IMG/VR virus record: IMGVR_UViG_3300025809_000078
Location: 1-30,709 of that record
DNA length: 30,709 nucleotides
Strand: one strand, 5' to 3'
Source of the DNA: a virus
A model generated the notes under the pieces. That model was not told the origin of the DNA. It ran no database searches and was given only the letters and a program-made list of their open reading frames with translations. The position numbers and the translations under genes are program-made. Positions within the stretch are counted from its first letter, which is position 1. Each line of letters begins with the position of its first letter. Shown piece by piece: positions 3,238-17,957 of this stretch.

Positions 3238-4970
3238 GCAGTAACATCAGCTTAGTAGAGTTAGGCAAGTACACAACGCCTCAGATTAGCGAGGACAAGC
3301 GCGAGAAGTTCGTTGCTTACGGCGCAGATAACAACTATTATCAGACGTTGATTGACGCAAAAGAATCACCAACCAACAGCGCGTTAATCAATGGCATAGC
3401 GGATATGATTTACGGGCGTGGATTATATGCTACAAACGCCGCTCGCAAGCCTGACGAGTACGCAATGATGGTGCAGCTATTCACAGAAGACTGTATGCGG
3501 AAAATCTGTGATGATTTTTACACATTTGGTCAGGCAGCATACCAAGTTATTTATGATACTTCTCACACCAAAGTAATGGAGGTGGCGCATATGCCTATTC
3601 AGAACCTTCGTCCTGAGAAGATGAACGATGAGGGCTATATTGAGGCTTACTATTATTGTGACGATTGGGCCAACGCGAGGCGCAATGATGAGCATCAAAG
3701 AATACCTTGCTTTGGGAAATCAAAAGAAGGTCTTGAGGTTATGGTGATAAAGCCGTACAAAGCAGGATTCCATTATTTTTCCCCTGTCGAATATCAAAGC
3801 GGATTAGATTATGCATTCGTTGAAATTGAACTTGCGAAATTCCACCTAAACAACATCTACAATAGATTTTCTTCAAATCTCATACTCAATTTTAATAACG
3901 GAGTGCCTGAAGAAGATCAGCAGCGGATGATCGAAACCAAGATAAAAGACAAGTTCACAGGCACAGAAGGAGATAGCGTAATCGTTGCTTTTAACGACAG
4001 TCAAGAAACTGCCGCAAGCATAGAATCGATAAGTTTACCAGACGCACATAATCAATACCAATTTATCGCGGAAGAAGCAAGTAGGAAAATAATGGTATCG
4101 CATCGCGTAGTTTCACCTTTGCTTTTTGGGTTGCCGCACAACGGCGGACTAGGATCAAACGCAGACGAAATTAAAATGGCCGCTTTGCTATTTGACAACA
4201 CGGTGATTAAGCCAATGCAGCGAGTAATCATTGAATCCGTTAACGCGATTCTATCTTTCAACGGAGCAAGCCTAAACACTTTCTTCTTAACTAGCCAGCC
4301 GCTTGAGTTCAGCGAGATGGAAATCGAAGAAGTAGATGTTGATACAGCGCAAGAAAAGACAGGTATTGAATTGTCAAAAGACAACCTTGACGAAGTAGCT
4401 GAACTACTCATTGAAAAAGGCGAAGAACTTGGCGATGGCTGGGAATTGATAGAAGAGAGCGAAGTTGATTATGACGAAGACGAGAAAGAGCCTAACCTAT
4501 TATCTAAGGTCTACAACTTTGTCAGCACAGGAACGGCAAGACCAAACGCAAAGAGCGAGCAAGATAGAGTGATTGATGGAGTTGCATACAAGACGCGATA
4601 CGTTTACGCACCTAACGCGGTTCAAGCCAACAGCAGACCTTTTTGCAAGAAGATGGTTGCAGCAAATAAACTATACAGAAAGGAAGATATCATTGCAATG
4701 GGAGATAAAGCAGTCAACGCAGGTTGGGGATTGAATGGTGCTTCAACTTATTCGATTTGGAAATGGAAAGGCGGTGGTGCTTGTCATCACAAATGGATGC
4801 GCAGAGTATTCCGCAAGCCCGTAATTGATGGGAACATCGACACAAAAAGTCCACTTGCACCAACTGTAAGCACTAATAAAAGCGAAAAAGAAGGTTATCG
4901 AGTTCGTAATCCAAAAGAGGTTGCTATGCGACCAATAGACAGAGGTGATAAAGGCTTCGTAAACAAGTAA
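3234..4970 (+). CDS. Portal protein with a C-terminal Cys/His domain
   Basis: At 578 residues this is the best portal candidate. The N-terminal ~370 residues carry portal-like features: ISEDKREKFVAYGADNNYY, then NSALINGIADMIYGRGL, FYTFGQAAYQVIYD, HMPIQNLRPEKM, and a long helix around EEASRKIMVSHRVVSPLLFG. Portals form the 12-subunit ring through which DNA enters the head. After an acidic linker (about 370-420), residues ~440-530 form a separate domain, RPFCKKMVAANKLYRKEDI, then WKWKGGGACHHKW, with Cys and His that might bind a metal. That part resembles C-terminal modules of phage head minor proteins. It overlaps the preceding gene by 4 bases and is followed by the connector gene. Confidence 0.8.
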   Translation: MSSNISLVELGKYTTPQISEDKREKFVAYGADNNYYQTLIDAKESPTNSALINGIADMIYGRGLYATNAARKPDEYAMMVQLFTEDCMRKICDDFYTFGQAAYQVIYDTSHTKVMEVAHMPIQNLRPEKMNDEGYIEAYYYCDDWANARRNDEHQRIPCFGKSKEGLEVMVIKPYKAGFHYFSPVEYQSGLDYAFVEIELAKFHLNNIYNRFSSNLILNFNNGVPEEDQQRMIETKIKDKFTGTEGDSVIVAFNDSQETAASIESISLPDAHNQYQFIAEEASRKIMVSHRVVSPLLFGLPHNGGLGSNADEIKMAALLFDNTVIKPMQRVIIESVNAILSFNGASLNTFFLTSQPLEFSEMEIEEVDVDTAQEKTGIELSKDNLDEVAELLIEKGEELGDGWELIEESEVDYDEDEKEPNLLSKVYNFVSTGTARPNAKSEQDRVIDGVAYKTRYVYAPNAVQANSRPFCKKMVAANKLYRKEDIIAMGDKAVNAGWGLNGASTYSIWKWKGGGACHHKWMRRVFRKPVIDGNIDTKSPLAPTVSTNKSEKEGYRVRNPKEVAMRPIDRGDKGFVNK

Positions 4971-10802: not shown

Positions 10803-11429
10803 ATGGCGAAGGAATTACCTTATTTTAAATTTGAGCCCAGCGAATGGGATAACGGCAACATTCAAATGTGCAGCTTCAACACACGGGCAATGTTCATTGA
10901 GTTGTGCTGCATTTATTGGATTCGAGTCGGAGATCTGCCCTATGCTTTAGCTTTACAAAAAGTATGTGGCGGCAATCAAGGACCGTTAATCGAACTAAAA
11001 AAACACCAAATAATCAAGGTTGAGGATGATTTGATAAGTATTAAGTTCCTTGACGAGCAGCTTGAAAGCTTCACCGAAACAAGGGCGAAAAACTCAGCGG
11101 CAGCGCGAAAAAGATGGGGTGGCAATGCGAGCGCAATGCGAGCGCATAGCGAAGGCAATGCCATAAGAGAAGAGAAGAAGAGAGAAGAGAAGAAGATAAT
11201 ACCATCAGTTGAGGAGTTTGTTGATTATTGCGTTTCAAAGCAGGCAAACGTTGATCCATCTCACGCCAAACTAAAATTCGATCAATGGGTAGAGAACGGT
11301 TGGAAGGACGGCTATAATAAACCGATTAAGGTTTGGAAGTCAAAAGCCAATGGAGTAATTCCTCACTTAAAAACAATCCAGCCGAAAGGCAAGTATCAAT
11401 TAGATAAATCTCAATCTAAAGACTTTTGA
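10803..11429 (+). CDS. Replisome organiser-like protein (DUF1376/Lin1244 type N-terminus)
   Basis: The 208-residue product begins ELPYFKFEPSEWDNGNIQMC, typical of phage replication proteins with a winged-helix N-terminal domain (FNTRAMFIELCCIYWIRVGD). Residues ~100-135 form a polar linker (GGNASAMRAHSEGNAIREEK, then Lys/Glu repeats), and the C-terminal ~70 residues are another small domain (FVDYCVSKQANVDPSHAKLK). The linker is encoded by an iteron array and purine tract, as in lambda O, where the origin lies inside the initiator gene. A TAATTTTG at 10776-10783 and the leader ACAAAACAAACAAACGAA precede ATG 10803. It probably recruits the helicase encoded at 13247. Confidence 0.75.
   Translation: MAKELPYFKFEPSEWDNGNIQMCSFNTRAMFIELCCIYWIRVGDLPYALALQKVCGGNQGPLIELKKHQIIKVEDDLISIKFLDEQLESFTETRAKNSAAARKRWGGNASAMRAHSEGNAIREEKKREEKKIIPSVEEFVDYCVSKQANVDPSHAKLKFDQWVENGWKDGYNKPIKVWKSKANGVIPHLKTIQPKGKYQLDKSQSKDF
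11122..11200 (+). repeat. Iteron array with purine tract, candidate replication origin
   Basis: Four 11-base units follow one another: GCAATGCGAGC (11122), GCAATGCGAGC (11133), GCATAGCGAAG (11144) and GCAATGCCATA (11155). A tract made almost only of A and G (AGAGAAGAGAAGAAG...) continues to about 11200. The array lies inside the replisome organiser gene and downstream of the DnaA-like gene. Iterons plus an easily opened asymmetric tract within the initiator gene is the lambda-type origin layout. Because 11 is not a multiple of 3, the repeat is not a codon repeat. A related copy lies at 23721-23792. Confidence 0.6.
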
Positions 11430-11473
11430 AGCAAAGCAAAATAGATATTATTGAAATTATTAATATAAAGAAT

Positions 11474-12655
11474 ATGAAAATAAAAGAAGAATTTAAACAG
11501 TTAATACCACCATTAACAACTGAAGAATTTAAGCAATTAGAAGATAACTGTTTAGCTGAAGGTATAAGAGAAAAAATACTAACTTGGAACGGTTTTATTA
11601 TAGATGGACATAATAGGTTTGAAATTTCTGAACGATGGAATTTAGACTATCAAACCGAAAGCAAACATTTTGATAATGAAGAAGCAGTTAAAGAGTGGAT
11701 GATACTAAACCAATTTGGTAGAAGAAATTTAAGTGCTTACCAAAGAAGTGTTTTAGCATTAGAACTTGAAGATGTTTTTAGTAAAAAGGCTAAAGAAAAA
11801 CAACAAGAAGCTGGTGGAGCGGTTCGTCAGAAATCTGACAAAGCGGTAATAGATACTAAAAAAGAACTTTCTAAAGTTGCATCAGTTTCACACGATACAA
11901 TATCTAAAGTAAAAAAGATACAAGAAAAAGCACCAGAAGAAGTAAAAGCAAAATTAAGAACTGGCGAAGTAAGTATTAATGCTGCTTATAAAGAAATAAA
12001 GAAAGAAGAAAAGAAAGCTGAAAAAGAAAGTGAAAGAGATAGATTAGCTGAACTTGGAAGTAAAAAAGAAATAGAAATAGATTTTAGGCTCGGTGATTTT
12101 GAGGAGGTATTTAAAGACATACCTGATGGAAGTATAGATTGTATTATAACAGACCCACCATATCCAAAAGAGTTTATTGAAGTTTGGAGTAAACTTTCAA
12201 GAGTTGCTAAAAGAGTTTTAAAACCAAACGGATATTGTGTTGCTTATTCAGGTCAAATGTATTTACCAGAGGTTATAAGCCGAATGAGTGATAACTTGGA
12301 TTACTATTGGACTTTTGCAGTTTATCACGAGGGACAAACACAAATAGTTAACGGAATAAATTTAATGTGTAGATGGAAGCCTGTTTTAATATTTCAAAAT
12401 GGTAAAAAGAAAATAGAGAATACATTCCAAGATTATTTTATTTCAGAACAAAGAGAGAAACAAGGTCACGATTGGCAGCAAAGCAAGAGTGGAGTAGGTT
12501 ACTTAATAGAAATGTTTACTAAACCAAATGATTTAATATTAGAGCCTTTTGCAGGAAGTGGTACAACGATAATAGCAGCAAAAGAAAAAGGTAGAAGAGT
12601 TATAGCTGCTGAGATTGATGAACAAACTTATAATATAGCAAAAGCATTAATATGA
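11474..12655 (+). CDS. ParB-like domain fused to a DNA methyltransferase
   Basis: ATG 11474 gives 393 residues and a typical ParB-like N-terminus (KIKEEFKQLIPPLTTEEFKQ, then GFIIDGHNRFEI); an in-frame TTG at 11426 is less likely. Residues 80-195 form a helical, Lys/Glu-rich middle. The C-terminal half is an amino-methyltransferase: DPPY catalytic motif at 227-230 and SAM-binding FAGSG at 359-363. The order DPPY then FAGSG indicates the beta class (N6-adenine or N4-cytosine). It would methylate phage DNA, perhaps to avoid restriction. The gene is visibly more A+T-rich than its upstream neighbours, as is the next gene, suggesting that both were acquired together. Confidence 0.85.
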   Translation: MKIKEEFKQLIPPLTTEEFKQLEDNCLAEGIREKILTWNGFIIDGHNRFEISERWNLDYQTESKHFDNEEAVKEWMILNQFGRRNLSAYQRSVLALELEDVFSKKAKEKQQEAGGAVRQKSDKAVIDTKKELSKVASVSHDTISKVKKIQEKAPEEVKAKLRTGEVSINAAYKEIKKEEKKAEKESERDRLAELGSKKEIEIDFRLGDFEEVFKDIPDGSIDCIITDPPYPKEFIEVWSKLSRVAKRVLKPNGYCVAYSGQMYLPEVISRMSDNLDYYWTFAVYHEGQTQIVNGINLMCRWKPVLIFQNGKKKIENTFQDYFISEQREKQGHDWQQSKSGVGYLIEMFTKPNDLILEPFAGSGTTIIAAKEKGRRVIAAEIDEQTYNIAKALI

Positions 12656-16237: not shown

Positions 16238-16613
16238 AGGACTTGGTGACACGATTGAAAAGATAACTGAAGCCACAGGAATTAAGAAGGCGGTCAAATG
16301 GCTTGCTGGTGAGGACTGCGGATGTGACGCTCGAAAGGAAAAGCTGAATGAGATGTTTCCAAACGATCGGCATAAGCCAACTAAGTGTATGTCCGAAGGG
16401 CAATATAACCAATGGACAAAATTGAAGGATATCACCAAGCAGGATAAGAATCGATACTTGACTGAGGTCTACCCAGCGATTGCTCAGATTCACGCTGTCG
16501 TTTTTGGTCATAGATATCACGAGCCTTGCACTTGCACACCAAGACAATGGGAGCAATGGCGAAACGATTTAGATCAAGTTTATTCAACATACGAAGCAGA
16601 TGCAAAAAGTTAA
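16185..16613 (+). CDS. Conserved phage protein with Cys pairs, 142 aa
   Basis: After a basic Lys/Arg-rich start (PRAKSTKPTRKRKAPSKG), the product has GLGDTIEKITEATGIKKAV, then WLAGEDCGCDARKEKLNEMF, and a later Cys pair with His (HRYHEPCTCTPRQWEQW). Two CxC pairs plus histidines could bind zinc. I recall the 'GLGDTIEKIT...GEDCGCD' pattern from flavobacterial phages, near terminase genes, without known function. It overlaps the sigma gene by 53 bases and the ParB-like gene by 14. It could be a DNA-binding packaging or regulatory factor. Confidence 0.65.
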   Translation: MPRAKSTKPTRKRKAPSKGLGDTIEKITEATGIKKAVKWLAGEDCGCDARKEKLNEMFPNDRHKPTKCMSEGQYNQWTKLKDITKQDKNRYLTEVYPAIAQIHAVVFGHRYHEPCTCTPRQWEQWRNDLDQVYSTYEADAKS

Positions 16614-17202
16614 GATAGCAGAAGTCAAGACCAATCCGAATAATCCGCGATTGATAAAGGATGACAAGTTTAAGAAGCTGGTCAAGTCAATAAAAGAGTT
16701 CCCTCAGATGCTTGAGTTGCGCCCGATTGTAGTCAACGATGATATGATTGTTCTTGGCGGCAATATGCGTTTAAAGGCTTGCAAGGAAGCAGGATTAAAA
16801 GAAGTGCCTATCATAAAGGCAAGCGATTTAACTGACGAGCAACAGAACGAGTTCATAGTAAAAGACAATGTAGGTTTCGGAGAATGGGATTGGGATGTGT
16901 TGGCAAACGAATGGGATGTAGTTCAACTTGAGGATTGGGGATTAGATGGTTTTCCTTTTGAGGATAACATTAATTTAAGCGATGAGTTTGGTGAAGATTT
17001 CAATTTAAAAGATGGAGACAAAGAACCATTTCAACAAATGACCTTTACTCTTGCAGATGAACAAGTTGAGCAGATTAAAAACGCAATAGCGGATATAAAG
17101 CAAACAGAAGAGTATAAGTACTGCGAAACAATGGGCAACGAGAATAGTAACGGCAACTCTTTATATTTAATAGTAATGCAATGGGCAGAGCAAAGGAGAT
17201 AA
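16600..17202 (+). CDS. ParB-like (sulfiredoxin-fold) protein
   Basis: The 200-residue product begins KVKIAEVKTNPNNPRLIKDD, then LRPIVVNDDMIVLGGNMRLK and ACKEAGLKEVPIIKASDL, the N-terminal pattern of ParB/Spo0J-type domains (a fold now known to bind CTP in ParB). No helix-turn-helix or methyltransferase follows; the C-terminal half is acidic and ends in LYLIVMQWAEQRR. In phages such proteins often sit beside DNA modification or terminase genes. The composition turns A+T-richer at about 16,980, within the C-terminal half. It overlaps the Mom-like gene by 22 bases. Confidence 0.75.
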   Translation: MQKVKIAEVKTNPNNPRLIKDDKFKKLVKSIKEFPQMLELRPIVVNDDMIVLGGNMRLKACKEAGLKEVPIIKASDLTDEQQNEFIVKDNVGFGEWDWDVLANEWDVVQLEDWGLDGFPFEDNINLSDEFGEDFNLKDGDKEPFQQMTFTLADEQVEQIKNAIADIKQTEEYKYCETMGNENSNGNSLYLIVMQWAEQRR

Positions 17203-17879
17203 TAGTAAAGGTAATACCGAGTAAGATTGCTAATGCTTTTGTAAAGAAACATCACTATTCTGAAAAGGTTGTAAATATGAGTAGTCTGCACTTTGGATGC
17301 TTTCTGAATCAGCAACTGCACGGAGTTATGAGTTATGGAAGCCCAATGGATAAAAGAAACGTTCTTCCTTTGGTTGATTCTGGGGAAACAGATATAAACA
17401 AAAGATGGAATGAGATGCTGGAGTTGAATAGAATGGCTTTTGATGACTATCTTCCAAAGTATTCAGAAAGTAGATGTATAGCAATCAGTATAAGATTGAT
17501 TAAGAAAAACGCACCACAAATTAAATGGATATTAAGCTACTCTGACGCTACTCAATGCGGAGACGGAACAATATACAGGGCAAGCGGATTTAAGCTTACA
17601 CAAATAAATAAAAACGGAACTATTTATAAGTTAGCTAATGGAGACGTAGTAGCAAAAAGAGGTGATAGTAAATACAATTTTACTGGTGCAACTGCATTAA
17701 AAGGTTTTCAAAACAGATATATTTACTTAATAGATAAGTCTTGTGCATTAACAGTACAAGACATACCATTTAGTGAAATAGACAAAAAAGGTGCAGGAAT
17801 GTATAAAGGAAAAAAAATAACCCTCCAAGAGAGGAGGGCTAATTTGAGCGAGAAGGTCGATTCGAACGCCACCTCTTAA
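17181..17879 (+). CDS. Mom-like DNA adenine modification enzyme (GNAT-related)
   Basis: The 232-residue protein matches the Mom pattern: FVKKHHYSEKVV (H25-Y26), SLHFGCFLNQQLHGVMSYGS, and ILSYSDATQCGDGTIYRASG (S119, D122, Y132). Phage Mu Mom (231 residues) converts adenine to a carbamoylmethyl form that blocks restriction; its HY, Ser, Asp and Tyr active residues have plausible counterparts here. It probably modifies phage DNA before packaging, as the terminase genes follow directly. The gene is A+T-rich. The last ~26 codons are odd: they run through the antisense terminator and tRNA-like gene. Losing one A from the run at 17811-17817 would stop translation after MYKGKK. Confidence 0.75.
   Translation: MGRAKEIIVKVIPSKIANAFVKKHHYSEKVVNMSSLHFGCFLNQQLHGVMSYGSPMDKRNVLPLVDSGETDINKRWNEMLELNRMAFDDYLPKYSESRCIAISIRLIKKNAPQIKWILSYSDATQCGDGTIYRASGFKLTQINKNGTIYKLANGDVVAKRGDSKYNFTGATALKGFQNRYIYLIDKSCALTVQDIPFSEIDKKGAGMYKGKKITLQERRANLSEKVDSNATS
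17810..17838 (-). terminator. Intrinsic terminator of the minus-strand tRNA-like gene
   Basis: Read on the minus strand, a perfect CCCTCC/GGAGGG stem (17821-17826 with 17833-17838) with a six-base loop is followed by TTATTTTTTT. There is no T tract on the + side, so this serves minus-strand transcription, 9 bases after the tRNA-like 3' end. Confidence 0.8.
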
Positions 17880-17917
17880 TTGGAATATCAAGTATGCAAC
17901 CATTACACTACTCTCGC
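17848..17917 (-). tRNA. tRNA-Gly(UCC)-like gene, unusual or degenerate
   Basis: The minus strand folds as a 70-base tRNA. The acceptor stem GCGAGAG pairs with TTCTCGC in all seven positions (one G-T). The D arm is GTGT-AATGGTT-GCAT. The anticodon stem CTTGA/TTAAG encloses TATTCCAA, where TCC precedes AA, so it would read GGA codons. The T loop TTCGAAT is canonical. Oddities: the anticodon loop has eight bases instead of seven, the T stem (TGGCG/CGACC) has two mismatches, the variable loop is short, and no CCA is encoded. The unit has its own promoter (17926-17957) and terminator, which argues for expression. It overlaps the annotated 3' end of the Mom-like gene by 32 bases. Confidence 0.6.
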
Positions 17918-17925
17918 ATAAAACA

Positions 17926-17957
17926 CGAATATAATACTTTATTTTGAATGAACAAAA
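17926..17957 (-). promoter_or_regulatory. Minus-strand Bacteroidota-type promoter for the tRNA-like gene
   Basis: On the minus strand, TTTTG (17957-17953), a 19-base spacer and TATATTCG (17933-17926) match TTTG-N19-TAnnTTTG with one mismatch. The element ends eight bases before the tRNA-like 5' end, so the transcript would start almost at the mature end. Its -33 part overlaps the first codons of the terminase small subunit. Confidence 0.6.

Follow-up and report, generated by a model that had tools for sequence, protein, structure and literature searches.

What does a tRNA-Gly-like gene do at the end of mom, the gene of a DNA adenine modification enzyme of the GNAT fold? The question is raised by the IMG/VR virus record IMGVR_UViG_3300025809_000078, whose 30,709 bases are called the window here. 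In the window and in related loci we directly observe an RNA gene, covariation along its stems, an association with mom, and behaviour as part of a cassette, parB-mom-tRNA. We consider it highly likely that the RNA is a dedicated glycyl-tRNA of this phage DNA-modification cassette and feeds Mom. It is also likely, in general terms, that Mom enzymes are aminoacyl-tRNA:DNA transferases that derive their glycinamide mark from glycyl-tRNA, and that many phages encode a non-decoding Gly-tRNA of their own to this end, which in some lineages lacks the D arm.

A tRNA-Gly-like gene overlapping the end of mom

17847..17917, minus strand: tRNA-Gly-like gene, 71 nucleotides (Rfam RF00005, family model, covariation)
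17917-17911 / 17854-17848, minus strand: acceptor stem of this gene
17847, minus strand: discriminator U
17887-17880, minus strand: 8-nucleotide loop UAUUCCAA of the anticodon arm, with UCC at 17884-17882
17857, minus strand: bulged A of the T arm, which has 4 base pairs
17926..17957, minus strand: Bacteroidota-type promoter-like site, TTTTG (17957-17953), N19, TATATTCG (17933-17926)
17809..17841, minus strand: intrinsic terminator of the tRNA unit, CCCTCC-loop-GGAGGG and a T run, antisense to the end of mom
17181..17879, plus strand: mom, DNA adenine modification enzyme (GNAT fold), the partner gene (Pfam PF25680, 147.5 bits)

Read part by part, the minus-strand letters from 17917 to 17847 are GCGAGAG TA GTGT AATGGTT GCAT A CTTGA TATTCCAA TTAAG AGGT GG CG TTCGAAT CG A CC TTCTCGC T; a D arm is present, and CCA is not encoded. 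The Rfam tRNA model (RF00005) matches these positions from end to end with 35.9 bits (gathering cut-off 29, E 0.00037), and a covariance model of the relatives, the window unit included, gives it 80.8 bits. Because of this family-model score and the covarying relatives, the unit lies far beyond chance. Covariance scoring, a check that the initial annotation proposed, supported the gene; of the tRNA finders that it also named, ARAGORN called no gene in the window and gave patchy calls on relatives. Folding of the single window sequence did not favour a cloverleaf (z -1.1), two relatives do fold into one, and the cloverleaf of the window unit rests on covariation.

The initial annotation had described a self-contained minus-strand unit with an irregular T arm and an eight-base anticodon loop around TCC, and both descriptions hold, the stem CTTGA/TTAAG closing the eight bases TATTCCAA. 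Its length and placement needed correction: the unit has 71 rather than 70 nucleotides once the discriminator is included, and it does not lie wholly in the gap between the Mom and terminase genes, as 33 nucleotides of its 3′ half run antisense to the final 11 codons of the open reading frame (ORF) of mom. The promoter and terminator claimed for it were recovered as a promoter-like site, TTTTG-N19-TATATTCG, 8 nucleotides upstream of the tRNA, and as a downstream hairpin (-15.8 kcal/mol, z -5.1) followed by a U-run. Of 44 minus-strand relatives, 41 are followed by a T run, against 12 expected; the strict -33/-7 promoter pattern fits only 6 of them (0.75 expected by shuffling), and no promoter pattern common to all relatives was found.

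The partner gene belongs to the Mom family by its PF25680 match, its fold and its catalytic serine. The closest structure to an AlphaFold2 model of the window protein is Mu Mom (8bv8, Z 20.7); below it the fold search returned GNAT enzymes only, with no Fem-type match among those listed, a negative that carries no weight. S97 of the window protein corresponds to S124 of Mu Mom, and this serine is invariant; the title of 8bv8 calls the S124A mutant inactive.

Association of the unit with mom across phages

Viral contigs were scanned with the small terminase and with Mom, which yielded 159 loci; a homologous unit adjoins mom in nearly all Mom loci and is found in none of the terminase loci that lack Mom. 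A model built from an alignment of 43 distinct units, R1, detected one unit in each of 79 further Mom loci (79/79, many of which had supplied R1), always directly 3′ of mom. Applied to the 80 terminase-query loci, it matched only in seven with Mom and in one whose mom side lies off the contig end, and it had no match in the 72 terminase-matched loci without Mom. R1 also gives ordinary tRNA-Gly genes of host genomes 24-54 bits and is therefore not specific, so that outside Bacteroidota phages it is the position beside mom, and not the score alone, that carries the argument.

The association extends to a distant Mom family, also within PF25680 and about 25% identical to the window protein: among 79 further loci fetched with it, 72 have the unit (70 by R1 and two by an acceptor scan), one reaches a contig edge and six are without it. 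A third scan, with the Mom of a Psychrobacter phage as query, found the unit in 72 of 78 loci; some contigs recur between scans, and the locus counts are not fully independent. The reverse search, in which the T-arm pattern alone pulled 112 contigs, placed mom within 1 kb in 108, with three at contig ends and one without Mom, and the unit was on the 3′ side of mom in all 108. The sole contig away from an immediate end and with no Mom in view (L454:4259) has its tRNA 253 nucleotides from the end. In two sets of Mom loci the unit is on the minus strand 53 times and the plus strand 26 times, and 18 and 52 times, respectively, with median distances from mom of 6 and -3 nucleotides.

The nearest DNA match in INPHARED is one short match in a Psychrobacter phage, which carries the mom-tRNA module too. 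Psychrobacter phage Y8A has two tandem D-arm-less units 3′ of mom with encoded CCA, and units 3′ of mom also occur in Chitinophagaceae, Oscillospiraceae and Clostridium contigs and, unannotated, in Arthrobacter phage Zartrosa; in Salinibacter phage B2_17 and Microbacterium phage Appa an annotated tRNA-Gly lies 33 nucleotides from Mom. Every tRNA gene that abuts Mom in the examined loci is of the glycine type, and CCA is encoded or absent as in the host's own tRNA-Gly genes in three of three genomes. Several side observations concern this diversity. The units of Appa (L182:3154-3225) and Zartrosa (L180:3095-3165), with ordinary T stems, are possibly separate recruitments of a tRNA-Gly. At L161:3662-3726 and 3734-3799, and beside mom in L245, L247, L255, L258, L260, L292, L293, L297 and L310, stand D-arm-less tRNA-Gly-like genes of about 65 nucleotides that encode CCA and have very short anticodon loops, unusual for bacteria or phages. 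One Clostridia contig has a normal tRNA-Gln (68 bits) upstream of a mom that is without a Gly unit (L163:5249-5320).

Comparison of close relatives indicates that the unit behaves as part of a cassette, within these bounds:

16600..17202, plus strand: ParB_N-domain gene, first of the parB-mom-tRNA cassette (PF02195, 34.7 bits)
16601..17946, no strand: extent of the cassette, from the empty site in L002, which joins window positions 16600 and 17947

Exactly this block, with parB, mom and the tRNA together, is missing from the sister phage L002, whose DNA is 85-88% identical. Another sister phage, L003, has different genes and no tRNA at the mom-tRNA slot; these are a ParB-domain gene, a glycosyltransferase-like ORF and a third ORF (L003:3938-5220), perhaps another DNA-modification cassette at the same place. 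Two further loci, L160 and L219, share 93% identity from the tRNA onward and 89% upstream, yet their Mom proteins belong to different families; the tRNA therefore goes with Mom function and not with a single mom allele. Where mom genes stand in tandem (L099, L154), the unit follows the last of them. Two diverged tandem mom genes followed by a single unit are seen at L099:843-2178, L154:4001-5352 and in L321, and what had seemed an insert of about 680 nucleotides between mom and the tRNA in L154 and L099 was rejected as such, being the second tandem mom. Almost every Mom locus has a ParB_N-domain gene ahead of mom, and the two are lost together. As ParB-domain genes are also reported near the CmoX/CmoY DNA hypermodification genes (PMC12783734), this gene may assist DNA modification in general. 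Further upstream in the window, positions 11426-12652 hold a fusion of a ParB-like domain with an N6/N4 methyltransferase, a second possible DNA-modifying gene.

Conserved and eroded features of the RNA

The bacterial glycine identity set consists of G1-C72, C2-G71, U73, C35 and C36 (PMC9976931), and the window unit has all of these. G1-C72, C2-G71 and U73 are present in 96 of 96 distinct sequences, CC (C35, C36) is in every anticodon loop, and G3-C70 is also invariant or nearly so. The stems are paired in 100% (acceptor), 99.4% (D) and 99.1% (anticodon) of cases with many two-sided changes, and the covariation score of the relatives is 0.81, against 0.25 after shuffling. The T arm had been read in the initial annotation as a stem with two mismatches, of which the irregularity stands, while the mismatches are better explained otherwise. 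Treating positions 49:65 and 51:63 as universal mismatches (0/43 paired each) was abandoned on pair counts in favour of a 4-base-pair stem with an invariant bulged A, which fits 98.3% of cells; its pairs show compensatory exchanges between G-C and A-U, and with it the covariation score, 0.74 before, becomes 0.81. This reading holds likewise for units beside the other Mom family: a 5-base-pair stem would pair 51:63 in 0/43 and 0/56 sequences of the two groups, whereas four pairs and a bulge fit 98% and 94%. With stems 98-100% paired and compensatory changes, the RNA is not the decaying tRNA that had been considered.

The features used in decoding vary. The anticodon loop has 8 nucleotides in 51 of 96 sequences, as it has in the window unit, and 7 in 44, with the same xCC; directly 5′ of the anticodon stands A in 47, U in 45 and a base other than U in 51. 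With its 8 nucleotides the window unit departs from the usual 7-nucleotide loop with U33. D-arm-less members keep CC with loops of down to 5 nucleotides, the D arm having been lost in several lineages. Host tRNA-Gly controls, in contrast, are regular (U33 in 11/12, T stem fully paired in 10/12). The T stem is altered in the EF-Tu contact region that was also lost by the non-proteinogenic tRNA-Gly of Staphylococcus aureus, where EF-Tu elements at 49-65 and 51-63 are gone (PMC9976931), so that at the sequence level the unit has the makings of a non-proteinogenic tRNA-Gly, with glycine identity kept and EF-Tu elements lost. Judged from sequence, the kept features appear to be those read by glycyl-tRNA synthetase (GlyRS), and the lost ones those read by EF-Tu and the ribosome.

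These patterns bear on what else the RNA could be. A tRNA-Gly that serves translation of phage genes and sits near mom by chance or linkage would explain a cloverleaf with a UCC anticodon, phage tRNAs being frequent and Appa carrying a near-canonical member; we nevertheless regard it as very unlikely, given the 7- and 8-nucleotide loops, A at base 33 in 47/96, the bulged T stem and repeated D-arm loss, together with mom in 108 of the 112 contigs found by RNA motif and the absence of the unit from relatives without Mom. The +1 frameshift suppressor raised in the initial annotation, which would have a four-base UUCC anticodon, draws on the 8-nucleotide loop of the window, which 51 of 96 relatives share. 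Loops of 7 nucleotides are about equally common at the same locus with the same xCC, and some loops have 5, so four-base decoding is not the conserved trait; the extra base moreover varies (T, A or C), leaving no conserved fourth anticodon base, and the suggestion is scarcely credible.

That the RNA regulates mom, as an antisense RNA or a 3′ structure whose tRNA shape is kept for stability, draws on its abutting or overlapping the end of mom, whose final codons it covers in antisense in the window, and on the tight regulation of Mu mom (PMC6483171). Its presence on either strand leaves no antisense or 3′-untranslated-region action common to all, a change to a distant Mom family left it in place, and the conservation of the GlyRS identity bases and of CC would be left unexplained; we therefore judge regulation, which the initial annotation had also raised, to be unlikely. 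The decoy proposed there, here taken to include a means of resisting host enzymes by which tRNA-Gly is attacked or acetylated, finds a parallel in GNAT toxins such as TacT that act on Gly-tRNA. Nothing points to it and it leaves the near-exclusive two-way tie to mom unexplained, which makes it a slim prospect. An integration site (att) is likewise unsupported, as across many phages the unit accompanies mom, on one strand or the other and always 3′ of it; in the window, which is only partly annotated, no integrase was noticed among the named genes, and a matching host tRNA was not looked for.

Glycyl-tRNA as the proposed donor for Mom

The Mom modification of adenine has been known since the 1980s, and the mark that it leaves, N6-carbamoylmethyl-adenine, is a glycinamide. 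The genetics join an RNA of glycine identity, apparently kept out of translation, to a GNAT-fold enzyme whose mark carries a group derived from glycine; on the simplest reading, glycyl-tRNA is the donor. The unit would be transcribed alone on the minus strand here and together with mom in other phages, consistent with the promoter-like and terminator sites, and the RNA would be processed, receive CCA and, to judge from its invariant identity bases, be charged with glycine by host GlyRS. The altered T arm and anticodon loop may then keep the Gly-tRNA from EF-Tu and the ribosome, and Mom, through its GNAT fold and essential serine, would move the glycyl group to N6 of adenine in phage DNA. By the formulae, the N6-carbamoylmethyl mark equals one glycyl residue in added mass; glycylation likewise contributes C2H3NO, and N6-glycyl-adenine is an isomer of the marked base; a rearrangement could therefore give the known product. 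The glycine amine would displace the original N6 by such a rearrangement or attack C6, in either case without radical chemistry.

Several points weigh against this proposal. Transcription, charging, EF-Tu exclusion, transfer and rearrangement are steps that we infer, and a published study of Mu Mom, which PMC8072286 cites, reportedly proposed acetyl-CoA and iron. An acyl-CoA "such as glycyl coA" has also been suggested as the donor (PMC7824862). Mu Mom works without an adjoining tRNA gene; Enterococcus phage phiSHEF2 and Polaribacter phage P12002L, among others, likewise have no unit at their mom, and the unit is missing at the Mom loci L163, L165, L168-L179, L308 and others, from several phages and hosts, so the association is not universal to Mom. 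The units of Appa and Zartrosa have ordinary paired T stems, and the Appa anticodon loop is canonical. Mom enzymes with no tRNA gene nearby, such as that of Mu, would use host Gly-tRNA as donor.

We found no report of a link between Mom and a tRNA in the literature searched, which lay mostly outside subscription journals and bioRxiv. If correct, glycyl donation would be the first case known to us of a DNA base modification that depends on a tRNA and would supply a donor that was previously not known, with ordinary acyl transfer in place of an odd radical proposal. It would add a class of non-translating phage tRNAs, including D-arm-less ones missed by standard tRNA finders, and a "phage tRNA" need not then mean codon supply.

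Known systems offer parallels to parts of this arrangement. CmoX/CmoY also place glycine on a phage DNA base and have ParB-domain genes nearby, as Mom does, but CmoY uses free glycine and ATP on carboxymethylcytosine, with no tRNA (PMC12783734). TacT-type toxins share the GNAT fold with Mom, and TacT reads U73 and G71 of Gly-tRNA (PMC9976931); TacT acetylates the glycine, whereas Mom would take glycine as its donor. Mu Mom, which makes N6-carbamoylmethyl-adenine, is of the same PF25680 family and fold with the essential serine conserved; Mu has com and no tRNA gene beside mom, whereas in the window a ParB-domain gene precedes mom. The RNA itself resembles the S. aureus non-proteinogenic tRNA-Gly that serves FemX/A/B in building the pentaglycine bridge of peptidoglycan, in which, as here, glycine identity is kept while translation features and the EF-Tu region of the T stem are altered (PMC9976931). 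The alterations differ, a bulged A in a 4-base-pair stem in the phage unit and substituted pairs 49-65 and 51-63 in S. aureus, and the phage unit is phage-encoded and tied to a DNA-modifying enzyme. By analogy, and with no kinship to the S. aureus tRNAs claimed, the phage unit probably works like a non-proteinogenic glycyl-tRNA: the user in S. aureus is a non-ribosomal transferase, and we propose the same for the phage unit, with Mom in that role.
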